Shown here: positions 1 through 61,292 of the stretch, one piece after another
How positions within the stretch are numbered: the first letter of the stretch is position 1
Layout: the number at the start of each line of letters is the position of its first letter
NCBI RefSeq assembly: GCF_003600835.1
Contig: NZ_NQYC01000001.1
Coordinates: forward strand, 2,436,001-2,500,000
Source of the DNA: Bacillus sp. PK3_68
Lineage (GTDB): Bacteria; Bacillota; Bacilli; Bacillales; Domibacillaceae
Length of the DNA stretch: 64,000 nucleotides
Direction of reading: 5' to 3'
The notes under the pieces: generated by a model
What the model saw: the letters and a program-made list of their open reading frames with translations, nothing else
The model's database searches: none
What the model was told of the DNA's origin: nothing
Program-made: the position numbers and the translations under genes

Positions 1-877
1 GATGGGCTTCGATATTGAGCGTATTCCTCCTGTTGATTATCACTTTTTGGGTGTTATTTGCGCTGATTGGCCCAATTGTGAATGAGCAAGGGGCAAGACT
101 GGCAAAAAATACGCCGCAGATGGTTCAAGTTGCAGAAGATGCCATCAATTATTTAATGAATGAGAAAGAACGTCTTCCTCAATTTGCGATTCAATCCCTT
201 GAAGACGCAGAAGGAAAAGTGGAAGATTGGGCAATGGCTTTTGGTACTTGGTTAATTAACTTTTTGCAAGGATTACTGCAAACGGTGTTCTTAACCGTAC
301 TCGTTCCATTTTTCCTATTTTATATGCTAAAGGATAGAGAAAGATTTGCGCCTTTTCTAGCTAACTTTTTTTCAGGTCACCGCCGGCAATGGATCCTCCG
401 AACGTTAAAAGATTTAGATGAAACCTTACAATCCTACATCCAAGGTCAGCTGCTCGTTAGCTTTCTTGTCGGCACCATGTTATTAATCGGCTACTTAATC
501 ATCGGCCTGGATTATTCATTAATTTTGGCGCTGATCGGCATGGCAACTAATGTGATTCCTTTCCTTGGGCCTTATCTGGCAGTAACACCGGCATTGTTAG
601 TCGCTTGGATTCAAGATCCACAAATGATTATCTGGGTCGCCCTCGTTATGCTGATTGCCCAGCAAATTGAATCAAACTTGATTTCCCCAAATGTCATGGG
701 AAAAGCGCTCGACATCCATCCGCTTACAGTTATTACCTTAATTTTAGCTGCTGGTAATATTGCGGGTATTTGGGGGTTATATTGGCCATCCCTACATATG
801 GAATTCTGAAAACGATCGCTGTGAATCTTTATGCAGCACGCCGGGAAATTAAAGATGTAGCTACGAAAGATATATAA
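1..877 (+). pseudogene. AI-2E family transporter, 5' end outside window, frameshifted near the 3' end
   Basis: Membrane permease of the AI-2E exporter/YueF-YtvI-like family. The reading frame is already open at base 3, so the true start lies upstream. Visible are repeated hydrophobic segments and the family's conserved ending HPLTVITLILAAGNIAGIWG. After Gly-Leu (about base 779) the frame runs into a short foreign tail and stops at 809. In another frame the expected ending continues (LAIPTYGILKTIAVNLYAA...), reaching a TAA at 875-877, so one base is missing around 777-782. This is either a genuine inactivating indel or a sequence error; the intact downstream codons favour a recent or artefactual event. 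Family assignment is good, substrate unknown. Confidence 0.8.
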
Positions 878-6360: not shown

Positions 6361-8182
6361 AGCTCTTCTGTTGCTTCTTGCATCCTTCTCTTGCAGGAGG
6401 AGAGAGACTAACAATGATATCCCCTTCTTCTCCTTTCGGACTATTGTCTTTTACATAAAATAATACTTTTCCATCCGGCTTTAATATAAGTAGCAAAATA
6501 GTCTCTCTTGCCCTCTCCTTCACATATTGCTCATAGCTATACCGGGCTGTCAGCTCGGTTTTCCGGAAAATATAATGTTGTTTCAGCTTTTTATTCAACT
6601 CTCCCCAGGTAGCCTCTTCGGAAAATAGAATGCTTCCTCCAATCGCGTGGCTATAGTCTCCTGAAGCAAGCTGGCGATCTGTATCAGCGCTCAATTGAAA
6701 TAAATTGTTTCTTCCCATTTCTGGCACAAAGGTGTTACAAACCAAGGCATTGTATGCATCATCATCCGTGGCAGCTATCATGTATTCATAGGGAGTACGG
6801 TCCATTTCGTATTCGGCCTGTTCTGACAAAATTTCACCGTGATAAAAAGAAAGGCCCGCCGCTCTTGCTTTTTGCAGTCTCCTCCATGACTCATCAACGA
6901 TTAACACAGGCACATTTGCCTCATTCAATGCCACAGCCAGCCCGACTGTAAAATCGTTGCTGCCAACAACTAATACTCCTGGTTGAGAATCAACAGCCAG
7001 CTTCCACCTTTTTGCCAACCAGCTAATTGAAAACCCATGGGCACACACAGTGGCAAACACTAGGGCGAGCGTGAGAGAAGTTACAATACGAGCATCTTCG
7101 TAACCGGCTCTAAGAAGTGAATCGGCAAAATAGCCCGATACTGTCAAGGCAACAATTCCCCGTGGAGCAATCCAGCCCACAAGCCCTCTTTCTTTCGCTG
7201 TCAAACCCGTTCCAATAGTGGATATCCAAATGGATAAAGGGCGAACGACAAAGAGCATGAGAGCGACAAACAGTAAAATATGCCAGTCAAAAATTTGCAC
7301 CAGGACATCCAGTGACAAAGAAGCTGTCAGCATAATGAAGATGGAGGAAATAAGTAAAATCGATACGTTTTCCTTAAAATGCCTCATATCTTTTATAGAA
7401 GATATTGGCATGTTAGCCATTGTCATTCCCATAGCTGTAACAGCGAGCAAGCCTGTTTCATGCATGAGTTCATCCGATATGGTAAAGCATGCAATGACCA
7501 ATACGAATACAAATGGAGCTTTTAAAAATTCGGGTATCGCTCCTTTTTCTACCATTAACCCAATACCTTTGCCGAGTGCCCAGCCGAGCAGCACGGCGAA
7601 TAATGAAGCAGCAAAAAAGATAAATAATGCCGTGAGGTGAAACTCGCTGTGCATAAAGACTTTAATAATTTCAAAAGCAAACACTGCTAGCAGCGCACCA
7701 AGCGGGTCTACAATAATACCTTCCCATTTTAATATCGCCGCTGTCCGCTGTTTTAACTTTGCCTGGCGCAATAGCGGCAAGATGACAGTCGGTCCCGTAA
7801 CAACGAATAAACCACCAATGACGAGAGCAGCAGCCCATGACAAGCCTGCAACATAGCGAGCAGCAAGTGAGCCAAAAATCCAGGCAAGCAATGCTCCCAG
7901 GGTGATAATCCGGATAATTGGCTGTTTAAGACCTTTGATTTCTTGAAGATTCAAATTTAAACTGCCTTCATATAAAATAATAGCTACCGCTATGGAAACA
8001 ACGGGTTTAAATAGCTGTTCAAAATCTTCTTCTGGATTGATTAGACCAAGCACAGGCCCGGCGATCAGTCCTGCTACTGACATAATGACAATGGCCGGAA
8101 GCCGAAAACGCCAGGAAATCCATTGAGAAATGATCCCCAACAATCCAATCATCATAAGATGAAATAGCATCGAATCAAGCAT
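6359..8182 (-). CDS. CPA1-type cation:proton antiporter with C-terminal nucleotide-binding-like domain
   Basis: Na+(K+)/H+ antiporter of the CPA1/NhaP group, 607 residues. About 12 membrane segments fill residues 5-400; the ion-binding region is recognisable in GGLFVVTGPTVILPLL and EGIIVDPLGALLA (Asp near residue 158). After the membrane part, residues about 405-510 form a TrkA-N/RCK-like Rossmann region (GVLVVGSNDFTVGLAVAL...), then a further soluble domain of about 80 residues. RCK-type tails usually couple transport to NAD(H) or nucleotide binding. Start ATG 8182 has AGAGGT upstream. It is monocistronic. Choice of ion cannot be told from sequence. Confidence 0.83.
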   Translation of the reverse strand: MLDSMLFHLMMIGLLGIISQWISWRFRLPAIVIMSVAGLIAGPVLGLINPEEDFEQLFKPVVSIAVAIILYEGSLNLNLQEIKGLKQPIIRIITLGALLAWIFGSLAARYVAGLSWAAALVIGGLFVVTGPTVILPLLRQAKLKQRTAAILKWEGIIVDPLGALLAVFAFEIIKVFMHSEFHLTALFIFFAASLFAVLLGWALGKGIGLMVEKGAIPEFLKAPFVFVLVIACFTISDELMHETGLLAVTAMGMTMANMPISSIKDMRHFKENVSILLISSIFIMLTASLSLDVLVQIFDWHILLFVALMLFVVRPLSIWISTIGTGLTAKERGLVGWIAPRGIVALTVSGYFADSLLRAGYEDARIVTSLTLALVFATVCAHGFSISWLAKRWKLAVDSQPGVLVVGSNDFTVGLAVALNEANVPVLIVDESWRRLQKARAAGLSFYHGEILSEQAEYEMDRTPYEYMIAATDDDAYNALVCNTFVPEMGRNNLFQLSADTDRQLASGDYSHAIGGSILFSEEATWGELNKKLKQHYIFRKTELTARYSYEQYVKERARETILLLILKPDGKVLFYVKDNSPKGEEGDIIVSLSPPAREGCKKQQKS

Positions 8183-48154: not shown

Positions 48155-48196
48155 AATAAGAAAAGAAGGGTCAATTCTGACCCTTCTTTTCTTATT
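48155..48196. terminator. bidirectional terminator, end of the Ter operon
   Basis: AATAAGAAAAGAAGGGTCA pairs perfectly over 19 bp with its complement around ATTC. It overlaps the last codons of the convergent Ter gene. Confidence 0.93.
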
Positions 48197-48806
48197 TTGA
48201 ACCGGCTACCCAGTTCATTCCCCAATTATAAGCCCGATCCATTTGCTTGTGTCCCGGGAAATATTCAACTAGCCTTTTAACGCTGAACGTTTCATTTTGG
48301 ACATTTTCAATCATGGCGATCGCACACATAATCTGACCGTTGCGATGCTCATCAAGCTTTACAACAATTTCCTCTCCATGAGAGTAGGTTAACCTAACGA
48401 CTCCATCTGCCTCTGACCAGTTAGCTGCCCCTTCATAAATGAAGGCATATACGAGTACTCGCTTAATGTCAGCGAGGCGGGAGCCATTGATTCGTAGGTT
48501 TTCTCCTCCGGCAGAAGCCCCTGTCCTATCATCGTGATCAAGCTGGATATAAGGCCGATTATTTAATGAGCCAAAGGCATTTCCCAGTGCCTGGACGCAC
48601 CCTTTCTCTCCTGAATTTAATTCAAACAAACAGCCAAGGTCTAAATCAAAGTTTTTTGTACCTCCGCCAAACAGGGATGATAAAAACCCACCGCCTTTAG
48701 CTGCTTTTGAGCTTTGATTCCAATTTAAATTAACTAAGACTTCCCCAATGTCACTGCCTTTTTTAGACAGATTAATGGACTGCCCTTTTTTCTTTAATTC
48801 AATCAT
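48192..48806 (-). CDS. TerD/TerA-like tellurium-resistance domain protein
   Basis: Last gene of the Ter operon, 204 residues. The opening KKGQSINLSKKG is TerD-like and is followed by a glycine-rich insert (GGGFLSSLFGGG) also seen in the TerD at 58.2-58.8 kb. FDLDLGCLFEL and IQLDHDDRTGASAGGENLRI correspond to the metal-binding strands and loop. The loop is closer to TerA than to the GDGDDEQ loop of the TerD trio. The final 40 residues (FSVKRLVEYFPGHKQMDRAYNWGMNW) are unlike the trio. Probably a Ca2+-binding scaffold of the membrane-associated Ter complex. Twelve bp separate it from telA. Confidence 0.85.
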   Translation of the reverse strand: MIELKKKGQSINLSKKGSDIGEVLVNLNWNQSSKAAKGGGFLSSLFGGGTKNFDLDLGCLFELNSGEKGCVQALGNAFGSLNNRPYIQLDHDDRTGASAGGENLRINGSRLADIKRVLVYAFIYEGAANWSEADGVVRLTYSHGEEIVVKLDEHRNGQIMCAIAMIENVQNETFSVKRLVEYFPGHKQMDRAYNWGMNWVAGSK

Positions 48807-49913: not shown

Positions 49914-51530
49914 CTAAAAAATTTGTTTTAAAATCCGGCTAAAAATGGAATGATCTTTTTTTCCGTTATTAAATGGCAAGTCAAATACCATGTCTTCAAG
50001 CAAATGATGATCAAAATACTGTTTATCAATAAACCTTTCCAAATCATTGTGGCCGGGTGGATTATACAAAATAATGTCCAGCCCGAACTCACTGAGCATC
50101 AAGAGTAAAGCTGCATCTGCCCGCGATAGATCACCATTTTTTTCGTTGTTGTACAAAATGATTTTTGGTATGTCCTGCGAATAGTCAAATGTTTGCAGCA
50201 AATTTAGGATCTCTTGCGGAATAGTGATTGCTTGTGTAAACAAATACAGCTGAACATCCTCTTCCGCCTCTCCTGAAAGCGGCTTAAGTTTTGGATGGGC
50301 ACACATCCGAGAAATAGCAGCAGCGATTCCCATTTGCAAGCCATCATGTAGCTGACCGTATTGCCACCAATTGCTTTCGATCATTTTTTTAGGATCGAGC
50401 AGGCCCTCTTTATTCAATGCATGACGATAGTGAAACTGATTATTCGCTTTTCCTTCCTGCTTATAAGGAAATTTCCTGATGGTTAAAGCATTTGAACAGC
50501 TTGTCAGCCTGTTCATATTTTCCCAATATTCTTTTCTGTTCTTAGATACGCCGGAAATTTTGGCAAATAAGTTAGGGATTTTCACTTCTTCTGCATCAGC
50601 CGAGAAGCCTGGCCGGATAAATGCTTTTTCTTTTGCCAGCAAGAAAACCTCATCATATGTGGTCTTCAAGATAACAGATACCGGAAGATGGTTGCGAAAT
50701 TGCCACGGTTTATAGAAAGCTGATCCCTCATGGTTCAGTACTTGTTCAATTTCCTTTGAAGCACGATAAGCGACCGTTCCCTGGCGCTTCGGCTCTTCCT
50801 CAGGAAAAGGCTGCATTTTCATTGTAGAAGGATAGTCTGCCCGTACTGTCCACTTGTTCTCTGGATCGACTTCCCGAAAGTCGTCTTTTCCTTCAGGATG
50901 TAGAATAACAACATCCATGCCCAAAAGAATTAAATAGTATAAGAAATATACTTGGCTCTTACTCATGTCACCATACCAAATCACATGTGGCACGTCTTGT
51001 TCAATCGGTGTCTCTTTCACCCATGGATCTAAATGATTCCAAATCCATTTCACTATATCTAGAAACACTCGTCTAAATTCTGGATGGCTAAAGGATCCAG
51101 CATGATTCGCTTGAAAGAGAGAGAAAACATCGATCAGTGCTGAACGAACAAGCCGGTTAAAATCCGGGTCTTTCTTATACTTTGGCAGCAATTCAGCGCC
51201 TTCAAGGAAAGCGACAAACCGGTTAACAGAAAGGCCGGGTTCATGTTGAATCACATGATAAATCTTTTGGATCGATTGAAAGCGGTCATTGGGCATCGTC
51301 TTATCGAGTGTTTCCGATAGAACGCATACGTGAGGCTGCTGGCTAAGTAAATAAAGTGAAAGCAAATATTCGGTTTCATCAAAGCCGGCACCTAGTATCC
51401 GTGCTGCTACCCGACTATATTGCACGTCCTCTTCTGTTTGATAGTAGTCAGACCGATCAGTAATCGGTTTAGCTAATTCGTTTGCCCAGTTTGTGTAATC
51501 GACCTGCATTGTAATAGGTTCTCTTTTCAT
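49914..51530 (-). CDS. yceG: YceG-type component of the Ter biosynthetic module
   Basis: Protein of 538 residues, similar by length and context to B. subtilis YceG (Pfam family YceG_bac, described as a putative part of the Ter 'biosynthetic module'). ATG 51530 is chosen, seven bases from AAGGAGG; the ATG at 51536 is too close. No catalytic motif is obvious. Two similar segments (VPHVIWYGDMSKSQVYFLYYLILLGMDVVILHPEG and IPKIILYNNEKNGDLSRAD... LLMLSEFGLDIILYNPPG in shortened form) suggest an internal repeat of a Rossmann-like fold. Function unknown. Confidence 0.85.
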   Translation of the reverse strand: MKREPITMQVDYTNWANELAKPITDRSDYYQTEEDVQYSRVAARILGAGFDETEYLLSLYLLSQQPHVCVLSETLDKTMPNDRFQSIQKIYHVIQHEPGLSVNRFVAFLEGAELLPKYKKDPDFNRLVRSALIDVFSLFQANHAGSFSHPEFRRVFLDIVKWIWNHLDPWVKETPIEQDVPHVIWYGDMSKSQVYFLYYLILLGMDVVILHPEGKDDFREVDPENKWTVRADYPSTMKMQPFPEEEPKRQGTVAYRASKEIEQVLNHEGSAFYKPWQFRNHLPVSVILKTTYDEVFLLAKEKAFIRPGFSADAEEVKIPNLFAKISGVSKNRKEYWENMNRLTSCSNALTIRKFPYKQEGKANNQFHYRHALNKEGLLDPKKMIESNWWQYGQLHDGLQMGIAAAISRMCAHPKLKPLSGEAEEDVQLYLFTQAITIPQEILNLLQTFDYSQDIPKIILYNNEKNGDLSRADAALLLMLSEFGLDIILYNPPGHNDLERFIDKQYFDHHLLEDMVFDLPFNNGKKDHSIFSRILKQIF

Positions 51531-56134: not shown

Positions 56135-56926
56135 TTATTCCTTCTTCTTGCCTGCAGCTGCTTCCTGTTCAGCCAGCTTGCGCTGATTGATGCGGTGCAC
56201 CACAAAAGTCGCAAGGAAAGTAATAATTAAAATAATAAAGAATGCATAATGCGAAACTTCATATCCTGCCACACCTGCTCCCATTTTCAGAGCGATGATA
56301 GCAATCAAAATATACGCTGTTGTCTCCAGTTCCGGTACCCTCTCAATGAGTTTCAAAAATACGCCCGCAATACCGCGCATCATTAGAACACCAAGCATTC
56401 CTCCAATTAAGAGTACCCAGATTTCCTCACTGACACCGAAAGCCGCCAGCACGCTGTCCACAGAAAAGGCAATATCCATGATTTCAACCGCTACGACCGT
56501 TCCCCAGAATGCGCCGAACATCCGGATTAATATTCCTTCTGTCTTCAATCCGCCTTCTGCATCTTCTTCTTCGCTTGCCCCTTTCGATTTATCGATAAAG
56601 TATTTAATCGACAACCAGGCAAGATAAGCGGCTCCTAAAATTTTTACCCACCACAATTTAATCAGGTATACACCAATACCGATGGCAATGAAGCGGAAAG
56701 CATACGCCCCTATTAAACCGTAAAATAGTGCTTTTTTTCGCTTGTCAGGCGGCAGATGCTTTACCATAACGGCCAATACAAGAGCGTTATCCGCTGAAAG
56801 TAGTCCTTCTAAAATGACAAGTGTGCCGATCAATCCCCAGCTAACCGGGTCAGTTAATACCTCCGCCCACATATGCCAATCGAAGAAGGCAGCATACGTG
56901 TTAAAAATACCATGAATAATGTCCAT
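56135..56926 (-). CDS. yceF: TerC family integral membrane protein (YceF-like)
   Basis: Membrane anchor of the Ter system, 263 residues with about seven helices. The acidic-in-membrane motifs LLSADNALVLAVMVKHLP and IMDIAFSVDSVLAAFGVSEE, with their paired Asp residues, are diagnostic of TerC and are thought to bind metal. The C-terminal tail is charged. It follows the third terD paralogue by 61 bp and starts at ATG 56926 after AGGAGGAA. TerC homologues are linked to manganese handling at the membrane and complex formation with TerD/TerB proteins. Symbol from order and similarity to the yceCDEF set. Confidence 0.9.
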   Translation of the reverse strand: MDIIHGIFNTYAAFFDWHMWAEVLTDPVSWGLIGTLVILEGLLSADNALVLAVMVKHLPPDKRKKALFYGLIGAYAFRFIAIGIGVYLIKLWWVKILGAAYLAWLSIKYFIDKSKGASEEEDAEGGLKTEGILIRMFGAFWGTVVAVEIMDIAFSVDSVLAAFGVSEEIWVLLIGGMLGVLMMRGIAGVFLKLIERVPELETTAYILIAIIALKMGAGVAGYEVSHYAFFIILIITFLATFVVHRINQRKLAEQEAAAGKKKE

Positions 56927-56987
56927 TCGTTCCTCCTGTTGAAAAAAACCAATAAAAGGCTTTCCCGCCCTTTATTGGCTTTAAAAA

Positions 56988-57566
56988 TTAAACTTCTAAC
57001 CCGTAGTTTCGGCAAAGTGCAGCTAATCCTCCAGAGAAGCCGCTGCCTACCGCGCTGAATTTCCAGTCATTTCCGTGTTTATACAATTCACAAAAAACGA
57101 CCGCTGTTTCAATCGAGAAATCCTCTCCCAGATCAAAGCGCAGAAGCTCTTGGCCAGTTGCTTCATCAGCAAGACGAACAAATGCATTGGATACTTGTCC
57201 AAAGTTTTGGTTGCGTAAGTCTGCATCATGAATCGTTACCGTGATGCCGATTCTCTCCACATAATCTGGAATCTTTGAGAAGTCCACAACCAGCTGTTCG
57301 TCATCTCCTTCCCCCTCACCTGTCCGGTTATCGCCTGTATGAATCACCGCACCGCTTGGATGTTGGAGGTTGTTGTAAAAAATAAAGTCGTGATCATTTT
57401 GGCAACGATGGCTAGCATTAACAAGAAACGCGGATGCGTCCAGGTCAAACTCTTGCCCGCCGGAATATTTATTTGTATCCCATCCGAGACCAATCACTGC
57501 TTTTACAAGGCCAGGGTTTGTTTTGGTTAAATCAATCTTTTGTCCTTTTGATAATGTAATACCCAT
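56988..57566 (-). CDS. yceE: TerD family Ca2+-binding stress protein (third paralogue)
   Basis: TerD protein of 192 residues starting at ATG 57566, nine bases after GGGGAGGG; an ATG six codons earlier is unlikely. It has [33 protein letters not shown] and the acidic Ca2+ loop [14 protein letters not shown]. It ends with [13 protein letters not shown]. About two thirds identical by eye to the next upstream paralogue, showing tandem duplication. Soluble; expected to bind calcium and associate with TerC at the membrane. Confidence 0.92.
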
Positions 57567-57611
57567 CTTCAAATCCCTCCCCATTTATTGATAAAGTGAT
57601 GTTACATTTTA

Positions 57612-58190
57612 TCAGGCTTGCAATCCATAATCTTTAACGAGTGAAGCCAGTCCACCTTGGTAGCCGCTGCCGATAGCATTGAACTTCCACTCGCCATTAT
57701 GTCTGTATAGCTCTCCTACCACTACTGCTGTCTCAATTGAGAAGTCTTCGCCTAAGTCATAACGGATTAATTCTTCATTGTTTTCACTGTTAACAATACG
57801 AACATAGCTGTTGGACACCTGTCCAAAATTTTGGTTGCGCTGTTCTGCTTCGTGAATAGTAATAGTAAAAGCAATTCTTTCAATAGCAGCAGGAACATCA
57901 GCTAGGCTGATCTGTACTTGTTCATCATCGCCATCGCCTTCACCTGTTAAGTTATCTCCTGAATGGACGACTGAACCATTGCCGCCTTCTAAATTATTGT
58001 AAAAAATAAAGTCCTGTTCGCTTCCACACTTGCCTGCCCCATTTAAAAGGAACACAGAAGAATCCAAATCGAATGAATGACCGCCATCATATTTGTTCGT
58101 ATCCCAACCAAGGCCAACTGTAATGTTTTTCAATCCTGGATTGCCTTTTGTTAAATCGACCTTTTGTCCTTTGCTCAATGAAATTGCCAT
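57612..58190 (-). CDS. yceD: TerD family Ca2+-binding stress protein (second paralogue)
   Basis: Typical TerD of 192 residues: [37 protein letters not shown], Ca2+ loop [30 protein letters not shown] and [16 protein letters not shown] 58190 follows AAAGAGGG. It is separated from its neighbours by 27 and 45 bp in one operon. The acidic loop carries all Asp/Glu residues used for double calcium binding in the family. Confidence 0.93.
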
Positions 58191-58217
58191 ATTAAAAACC
58201 CTCTTTCCTATTTTTTA

Positions 58218-58820
58218 TTAAGCGTAACGGCGTACCATTTCGCGTAACCCTGTATCACGTGTGCCGGTACCAACGGCTGCAAACTTCCAGTCAGCGCCAT
58301 GACGGTAAATCTCTGCTACTGTTAAACTTGTAGAACCGGAGTAGTCCTCGGATAAATTAAATTTAAGCAGTTCCTCTCGATTTGCCGAGTTGACTACACG
58401 AATAAATGCATTTTGGACCATGCCAAAATCCTGCTTTCGAGAAACACAGTCATAAATGTTAACAACAAACACAAGCTTGTTAATATGAGAAGGCACACTC
58501 TTTAAATCAATGAGAATTTGCTCATCGTCGCCGTCGCCGTCGCCTGTTAAATTATCTCCTGTATGTACAATGCTGCCGCAGTTGCTTTTTAAGTTACCAA
58601 AATAAATGAGATTTTCATTGCTTACAAACTTGTCGTCTTGCAGCATAATGACCGAAGCATCAATGTCAAAATTCGCACCTCCACCTCCGCCAAACATGCC
58701 AAGCAACCCGCCAGATTTCCTCTGTACCGGATCCCATCCAAGACCAACCATAATTTTTTCAAGTCCCGGATTGCCTTTTGTTAAATCAATTCTCTGCCCT
58801 TTCTGGAGGACAATAGCCAA
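58218..58820 (-). CDS. yceC: TerD family Ca2+-binding stress protein (first paralogue, Gly-rich insert)
   Basis: First gene of the Ter operon. I start at TTG 58820, eight bases after GAGGGAG, giving 200 residues that begin (M)[18 protein letters not shown] like other TerD proteins; the open frame reaching 58886 lacks a site. The insert GGLLGMFGGGGGANFDID replaces the short loop of the paralogues and recalls the insert in the last gene of the operon. The Ca2+ loop GDNLTGDGDGDDEQ is intact. The distinct C-terminus reads RDTGLREMVRRYA. Confidence 0.9.
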   Translation of the reverse strand: MAIVLQKGQRIDLTKGNPGLEKIMVGLGWDPVQRKSGGLLGMFGGGGGANFDIDASVIMLQDDKFVSNENLIYFGNLKSNCGSIVHTGDNLTGDGDGDDEQILIDLKSVPSHINKLVFVVNIYDCVSRKQDFGMVQNAFIRVVNSANREELLKFNLSEDYSGSTSLTVAEIYRHGADWKFAAVGTGTRDTGLREMVRRYA

Positions 58821-58901
58821 ATCAATCACTCCCTCAAAGTCAGCAAGAGACAAGGACTCCTGCTTCAAATGGCTTTCTTTTTCCATTTTACTACACGTAC
58901 T

Positions 58902-59065: not shown

Positions 59066-59749
59066 TTACATCTCCAGCATCATTTTCTCAAGCCGAAGCG
59101 GCTCTATATATTCTCCTTGTTTGTATGCCCGCATATTTCCACCGGAAATTTCATCAATTAATAGTACTTGTCCGTCCTTTGCACGGCCGAATTCAAACTT
59201 AATATCATACAAATCTATCTCTTTTTTAGCGAGCTCTTCTTTTACCGTGCCGGCAATCTTTCTTGTGAGTTCTTTCAGCTCTTTGTATTCTTCATGCGAA
59301 AGGATACCAAGCATTGCAAGCGCATCTTCGGAAATTGGCGGATCTTGGCGTTCATCGTCCTTCAATGTCACCTCTACAAACCCGTCAAGCCGTTGCCCTT
59401 CTTCCGCATACATGCCGTAACGGCGCAAGAAACTTCCGACCGCCCGGTAACGGCAAATCACTTCCAGTCCCTTGCCAAATACAGTAGCCGGCTGAACCGT
59501 CATCGTCGCTTCATCAATATCAGCCTCAATATAATGAGTAGGAATGCCTTTTTCTTTTAAAATCTCAAAAAAGTGTTTCGTTAACCGGAGCCCCGCTCGG
59601 CCTGCCCCTTCCATTGTCAAACCGACTGTGTTGGCACCAGGATCAAACACACCGTTTTCGCCTGTTACATCGTCCTTAAATTTCAACAAATAATTTCCAT
59701 CTTCCAATTCATAGACATCTTTTGTTTTACCTGTATACATACGTTTCAC
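59066..59749 (-). CDS. purC: SAICAR synthetase-like protein, solitary and divergent
   Basis: ATP-dependent ligase of the PurC family (CAIR plus aspartate to SAICAR), 227 residues. The start is GTG 59749, eight bases after a perfect GAGGAGG; the upstream TTG is rejected. It keeps MYTGKTKDVYEL, FKDDVTGENG, the ICRYRAVGSFLRR core and LIDEISGGNMR near the end, where the usual PurC reads DEISPDTCR-like. No other pur gene is nearby. It lies 179 bp upstream of the Ter operon on the same strand and divergent from the terD-terA gene. It may be a second PurC or a ligase recruited to the Ter nucleoside pathway, which here lacks an ATP-grasp gene. Confidence 0.8.
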   Translation of the reverse strand: MKRMYTGKTKDVYELEDGNYLLKFKDDVTGENGVFDPGANTVGLTMEGAGRAGLRLTKHFFEILKEKGIPTHYIEADIDEATMTVQPATVFGKGLEVICRYRAVGSFLRRYGMYAEEGQRLDGFVEVTLKDDERQDPPISEDALAMLGILSHEEYKELKELTRKIAGTVKEELAKKEIDLYDIKFEFGRAKDGQVLLIDEISGGNMRAYKQGEYIEPLRLEKMMLEM

Positions 59750-59919
59750 ACAATCCGCCTCCTCTGCATTTTTCAAATAACTCTTTCATTATGCAGGATT
59801 TTTTCTGAAAATTTAATAGTTTACTTTGTTTTCATCCCATGTAACAAACTCCAATATTAAGAGTACCTTGGAAAGGTTATATTTGATATGCTCATGGAAA
59901 GCAAAAGGAGGAGATAACA

Positions 59920-60660
59920 ATGAACCTCGTTAAAGGCGCGCGTGCAGATATCACTAAAAATGAACCGGGTTTAGACGAAATCATTATTCAAGTCAGCTGG
60001 GAAGCAGATCCTTCACTTGATATTGATGCTTCTATTTTCATGATTGATGAATCGGGGAAATGCCCAGGGGATCCTTATATGATCTTTTATGGCAATGCCA
60101 GTTCCGCTAACCAATCTGTCTGTCATTCAGTAAACAACCAGTCTTCCGAAAAGACCGAATCATTTTCCATTAAATTGGATACAATAGAACCTATTGTGCA
60201 GAAGCTGGTCCTTACATTAACTATTTTTGAAGAGGAGCAGAAGGGACAGACATTTGCACAAATGAACCATGCCTCTATGAAAATCTTAAATAAAAAAAAT
60301 GGCACAGAACTAATTCATTATGACCTTGGTCCATTCACAGTAGAGAACTCGCTCGTCGTCGCAGAGGCTTACCGCCGGAATGGCGGATGGAAAATTTCCG
60401 CCAACACAGGCGGGTTCGCTGGAGGGCTTGCCCAGCTGTGCCAGCATTTCGGCTTAGAAGTAGCAGAGGAAACTGAGCCAACTGCTAGTATGAAACAGGC
60501 TCAAAAAGAAGCGGCCCCTGCTATTGAAAATGAGAACATAAATGTTGACCAAGCTCCATCGGTAATTCAGCTGTCGAAAATTACCCTCGAAAAACCGGGT
60601 GACTCCATTTCTTTAAAAAAAGCCGATAAAATTAAACATATAGCCATTAAGTTGCAATGA
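59920..60660 (+). CDS. TerD-like domain, 5' part of a TerD-TerA gene cut by an in-frame TGA
   Basis: Starts at ATG 59920 after AAAGGAGGAG. Residues 1 to about 185 form a TerD domain (NEPGLDEIIIQVSWEAD, DIDASIFMID, QTFAQMNHASMKIL, GGFAGGLAQLCQHFG). The acidic GDGDDEQ calcium loop of the other paralogues is missing; the place reads CHSVNNQSSEKTESF. After a linker a second domain begins (LEKPGDSISLKKADKIKHIAIKLQ split) and is cut at codon 247 by TGA, exactly where this family has Trp (TGG) before the DLD strand. The remaining domain follows in the same frame. Confidence 0.75.
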   Translation: MNLVKGARADITKNEPGLDEIIIQVSWEADPSLDIDASIFMIDESGKCPGDPYMIFYGNASSANQSVCHSVNNQSSEKTESFSIKLDTIEPIVQKLVLTLTIFEEEQKGQTFAQMNHASMKILNKKNGTELIHYDLGPFTVENSLVVAEAYRRNGGWKISANTGGFAGGLAQLCQHFGLEVAEETEPTASMKQAQKEAAPAIENENINVDQAPSVIQLSKITLEKPGDSISLKKADKIKHIAIKLQ

Positions 60661-61098
60661 ACGAAAGGCGTCGATCTTGATATGCACGCTTTCTATAAAA
60701 CAAAAAATGGTAGAACAGGTCATATCTTCTTCGGAAACAAAGGGAAGGCAAACGAGTCTCCTTATATCGCTCTCGATAAAGATGCTGGTGTTGGCAATAA
60801 GTCCGGCCATAACGAAGAAAATCTAGTGATTAAAACCTTGGAAGATATAGAATCTGTTATCATTGCAACTAACATTTTCCGCTTTTTTCGTTTTAAGAAA
60901 GACGACAATTTTGCCAAGTATGACGGCAAAGTAACGATTAAAACAAATACGGGTGATGAGATAGACGTGCCATTAACCTCTGAAGAACCAGGCAGATGGT
61001 GCGTCATTTCTAAAATTGATAATTCCCATTCTTCTGCCCCAAAAGTCATTAATATCAACCGTGTACAAAAAGGCGAACCGAGCATAAACAAATATTAA
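60661..61098 (+). pseudogene. TerA-like C-terminal domain, in frame after the TGA
   Basis: Directly after the TGA at 60658-60660 the same frame continues TKGVDLDMHAFYKTKNG and runs to 61098, so the intact gene would have 392 codons. The segment matches the TerA/TerD second domain: GHIFFGNKG, YIALDKDAGVGN and ENLVIK parallel the corresponding strands of the gene at 48.2-48.8 kb. Its only ATG (60682) lies inside the conserved DLDMHAF strand and has no ribosome site, so it is not an independent gene. A G-to-A change, sequence error, or readthrough product are the options. Confidence 0.72.
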
Positions 61099-61223
61099 CA
61101 GGGCAGGGATGGAAAACGATAACAGAGCATTATGCTACCAATAACTCCAATCATGAATTTTTATAACAAATAAATGCCTGCCACTATTGAGAAAACTGGA
61201 GATAAAATATGTTAATAACGTAT

Positions 61224-61252
61224 AAAAGAAGCACCATGAGTGCTTCTTTTAT
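61224..61252. terminator. bidirectional rho-independent terminator
   Basis: AAAAGAAGCAC / GTGCTTCTTTT stem between terD-terA and the convergent histidine kinase gene. Confidence 0.88.
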
Positions 61253-61292
61253 AGTGTAGACAAAGTCTATTTTATATACTTGCAGACAATTG

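Follow-up and report, generated by a model that had tools for sequence, protein, structure and literature searches.

The question raised by this locus is whether an in-frame TGA in a terA-like gene of Bacillus sp. PK3_68 is a genuine mutation, a sequence error or a codon that is read through. The window analysed is a stretch of 64,000 nucleotides in contig 1 of this genome, which comprises two contigs (4.83 Mb) and contains a single DNA copy of this gene. On the forward strand, positions 59920–61098 form a single 393-codon frame with a TGA at codon 247 (60658–60660). The first-pass annotation had placed this TGA within a frame open on both sides, as was confirmed by the 246 codons that precede it and the 145 that follow. 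The 5′ part (59920–60660, forward strand, 246 amino acids) contains the whole N-terminal TerD domain (residues 1–177), a linker and the ∼25 starting residues of a C-terminal domain, and belongs to the TerD superfamily, with a score of 169.8 bits against Pfam TerD (PF02342; gathering cut-off 25.3; E = 5.9e-50). The 3′ part (60661–61098, forward strand), which holds the remainder of the C-terminal TerD-like (TerA) domain in 145 codons followed by TAA (61096–61098), matched no Pfam family and no solved structure when searched alone, and an NCBIfam search returned no match. Directly read from the sequence, a Shine-Dalgarno element, AAAGGAGGAG (59904–59913, forward strand), lies 5′ of the ATG at 59920 and constitutes a strong ribosome site.

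The closest relative used for comparison was the terA-like gene of the sister species, Bacillus wudalianchiensis FJAT-27215 (NZ_MAYT01000012.1), which was 77% identical over a 392-residue match. The two genes are alike in their upstream neighbours and the order of these, but in B. wudalianchiensis a Trp codon replaces the stop and the frame is open throughout. The alignment contained no indels 3′ of the TGA and the frame beyond it was homologous to the sister throughout, which rules out an open frame arising by chance. The intact sister protein has two TerD stretches, the second TerD-like domain following a linker within the ∼385–393 codons typical of TerA, and matches plasmid TerA over its whole length at 30% identity; the gene is thus a terA homologue, and most of its second domain in the window lies beyond the TGA. 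Plasmid terA (terZABCDE type; NZ_CP042362.1, CDS 49940–51097, annotated as TerD family) likewise encodes two TerD-like domains in ∼385–393 codons and has Trp at the codon matching the TGA, but it is an uninterrupted gene of 385 codons situated between terZ and terB in a terZ-A-B-C-D operon, whereas the window gene is broken at 60658–60660, is divergent from the terC/terD block and is separated from it by a purC-like gene. The earlier name "TerD-TerA" was corrected accordingly: this is a two-domain TerA-type protein, as in plasmid terA, rather than a fusion of separate TerD and TerA genes.

At the interrupted codon, TGG was present in 19 of 19 homologues (30%–77% identical, enterobacterial plasmid TerA included) and a stop in none. 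Besides the sister species, these included Neobacillus niacini (56% identical), nine genomes of one further family within the order (56%–60%) and seven more distant homologues (∼30%), all of them intact two-domain relatives to which the window gene aligned over its whole length. In the Bacillales sequences, the Trp opens a W-x(4)-DLD motif of the second domain. Because the first domain carries an equivalent W...DID and the single-domain TerD neighbours at 56988–57584 and 57612–58190 carry LGWD...DLD, the Trp is part of a shared fold motif, and the earlier expectation of Trp at the stop position was borne out. Conversion of TGG to TGA takes one step, a G-to-A transition. Separately, a terA homologue in another family seems to end early, at a TAG ∼27 codons short of the usual end.

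The presence of an in-frame TGA with the frame open on both sides is what selenocysteine insertion or genome-wide UGA recoding would produce, and both were assessed from the decoding machinery. A tRNA search of the genome gave 121 matches, one of which was weak and under the cut-off; the tRNA clusters held 120 tRNAs, of which one was a tRNA-Trp(CCA) and none carried a UCA anticodon. An over-wide scan also returned a tRNA-SeC (UCA) match, which lay outside the tRNA clusters and was taken as spurious. The tRNA-Trp(CCA) is canonical, with an anticodon stem of 5 bp, so the UGA recoding mechanism that depends on a tRNA-Trp with a 4-bp anticodon stem (PMC13092985) is not applicable. Release factor RF2 matched its profile without interruption across positions 9–353, and TGA was the terminal stop in 26 of the 161 orthologous genes with a readable stop. 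These results upheld the earlier exclusion of general UGA recoding. A selenoprotein was rejected in turn, as the relatives have Trp and not Cys at this position and the UCA tRNA is lacking from the set of 120; taken together, selenocysteine or genome-wide recoding was given a vanishingly small probability.

The first-pass annotation had also proposed readthrough, programmed or leaky, giving a short and a long form. Selected readthrough, in which the stop would be maintained so that a short form with the TerD domain and a long form with both domains are made in a set ratio, is improbable: the stop is not conserved in any of the 19 homologues and falls inside the second domain, away from the domain junction. 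Neither a stimulatory structure nor a suppressor tRNA of the kind expected for programmed readthrough was found; the fold of the RNA downstream of the TGA was not unusual (z = −0.93), the locus matched no Rfam element, and the tRNA-Trp is the canonical one described above. Promoter and terminator scans of the locus also returned nothing. In favour of selected readthrough are the purifying selection on the downstream domain, the reported wide occurrence in bacteria of in-frame stops with dN/dS below 1 (PMC7918605), and the basal decoding of UGA as Trp in Bacillus subtilis, stated as ∼6% in the part of PMC6316719 that cites Lovett (1991). A normal tRNA-Trp reading this UGA would insert the very residue that is conserved here, although the figure comes from B. 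subtilis, another organism and another context. Of the readthrough proposals, therefore, leakiness at a basal Bacillus rate remains plausible and a programmed switch with selected short and long forms is unsupported. Nothing at the locus points to a special decoding signal, and the case is an ordinary one.

A further alternative is a split gene whose 3′ half is translated separately from the first ATG past the stop (60682–60684, forward strand). This codon lies 8 codons beyond the TGA but is a poor restart candidate: the sole AAAGG ends 13 nt upstream, a long spacing, a start here would leave out the W-x(4)-DLD motif, and none of the relatives is split at this point. Separate translation is accordingly regarded as highly improbable.

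Decay in the downstream codons had been set by the first-pass annotation as a test, and when the test was run no decay was found. The 145 codons past the TGA contained no frameshift and no further stop. When Neobacillus niacini and one other genome served as outgroups, strict unique residues of the window lineage were found at 7 of 180 sites in the first domain versus 4 of 143 after the stop, so that the part past the stop shows no excess. Codon models fitted to each domain with its own branch lengths set no bound on the neutral fraction because synonymous sites were saturated. A joint codon model was used in which both domains share neutral branch lengths; its figures are rough, synonymous sites being near saturation, and gave omega on the window branch of 0.077 for the first domain and 0.070 for the second. 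For the second domain, the likelihood was best with 1%–2% of the window branch neutral (lnL = −3850.60 at 1%, −3853.00 at 6% and −3867.86 at 100%), with a loss of >2 log units at 6% and 17 at 100%, so that a neutral share above ∼5% was rejected. A neutral share this small means that the stop is young compared with the divergence of the two species, or is not real, or is being bypassed. With no second lesion and with purifying selection kept, the gene lacks the marks of a decayed pseudogene, and judged from its sequence would be at most a very young one. The lack of decay suits a very recent mutation and an error equally, and alone does not show that the base is real.

The quality of the assembly was surveyed by comparing ∼295 orthologues each in the window genome and the sister, using the same pipeline, over ∼0.6 Mb in stretches around the window. 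Frame changes numbered 13 in the window genome versus 3 in the sister, a few on each side being start-codon artefacts; each of the inspected changes adds or removes one base, in most cases within or next to a short homopolymer. This excess is most simply read as indel error left over in the assembly. The only fructose-bisphosphate aldolase gene (fbaA; contig 1, 2393429–2394288) has lost one base within a run of A and is thereby split, and no second copy was found in the genome. Fructose-bisphosphate aldolase is essential in B. subtilis, and a broken single-copy fbaA is a strong sign of residual indel errors. Within the window, at ∼761–779 (reverse strand), a gene that matches a 359-residue sister ORF, by eye an AI-2E-type transporter, is frameshifted near its C terminus by a single-base loss beside GGGG, which is probably an assembly error as well. 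Single-base oddities of this assembly thus need to be checked against reads before they are interpreted biologically.

That the A of the TGA is likewise a base-calling or assembly error, the real gene being intact, was considered somewhat unlikely. The roughly fourfold excess of frame changes over the sister and the disrupted aldolase gene both speak for such an error, and the absence of decay in the 3′ part of terA is what an error predicts. However, the errors detected are indels, and the terA frame has none. Interior nonsense changes comprised one convincing case (terA) and two weaker candidates in the window genome versus one or two in the sister. By our own estimate ∼4% of random substitutions create a stop, so that even with a few substitution errors in every 200 kb such a hit would seldom result. 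As nonsense changes are not clearly enriched, a real mutation is moderately favoured over a base error.

Mutation or sequence error had been named at the outset as the chief options, and the analysis supports these two. The TGA is probably a recent, private TGG-to-TGA nonsense allele in the terA homologue of a chromosomal ter stress cluster, and we infer that the base is real. In the sister species the corresponding locus has the same neighbours and is intact, as expected of a private allele, and since nonsense changes inside genes are about equally rare in the two genomes such an allele needs no special cause; the residual single-base errors elsewhere in the assembly count against it, as the A could be wrong. 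In-frame stops flanked by sequence under purifying selection (dN/dS below 1) are reported to be common across bacteria and for the most part short-lived (PMC7918605), a pattern that the window case matches. The nonsense alleles in that study were likewise in-frame stops made by one substitution, with purifying selection retained before and after the stop, but the stops used there were common to two or more genomes, whereas the window stop is known from one. Under a real nonsense allele, translation would begin at the strong ribosome site and most ribosomes would halt after 246 residues, with a predicted product in which the complete N-terminal TerD domain is followed by the linker and a short remnant of the second domain. 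TerA function would probably be lost or strongly reduced, and near-cognate decoding of UGA by tRNA-Trp may yield normal full-length TerA at a level of a few per cent.

The surroundings of the gene are otherwise conserved. TerC and three single-domain TerD genes (56135–58886, reverse strand) are intact and follow one another as they do in the sister, terA being divergent from this block. The terD block and terA are separated by a SAICAR-synthetase (purC-like) gene (59066–59776, reverse strand), which holds that place in the sister too. Further along are genes for C-C bond lyase, PRTase/TRSP, StiP/PELOTA, HAD and YceG proteins, which are usual companions of ter genes. Directly 3′ of terA, the sister has a 234-residue ORF (6381–7085 of its sequence piece) resembling a polysaccharide deacetylase, which is missing at the matching window site (61099–61290). 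A TerA-like protein of 204 residues (48192–48806, reverse strand) aligns to the second domain (31% identity over residues 247–372), and together with the three intact TerD proteins it makes some redundancy conceivable.

The biological weight of the finding is small: one private nonsense allele, or a base error, in a stress gene with paralogues nearby. A reading in which the TGA has become fixed in the species and is maintained by selection as a leaky stop, decoded as Trp and setting the ratio of single-domain to two-domain Ter proteins, is quite improbable; if it were true, the locus would illustrate cleanly how Trp-inserting UGA leakiness is used to make two Ter isoforms.
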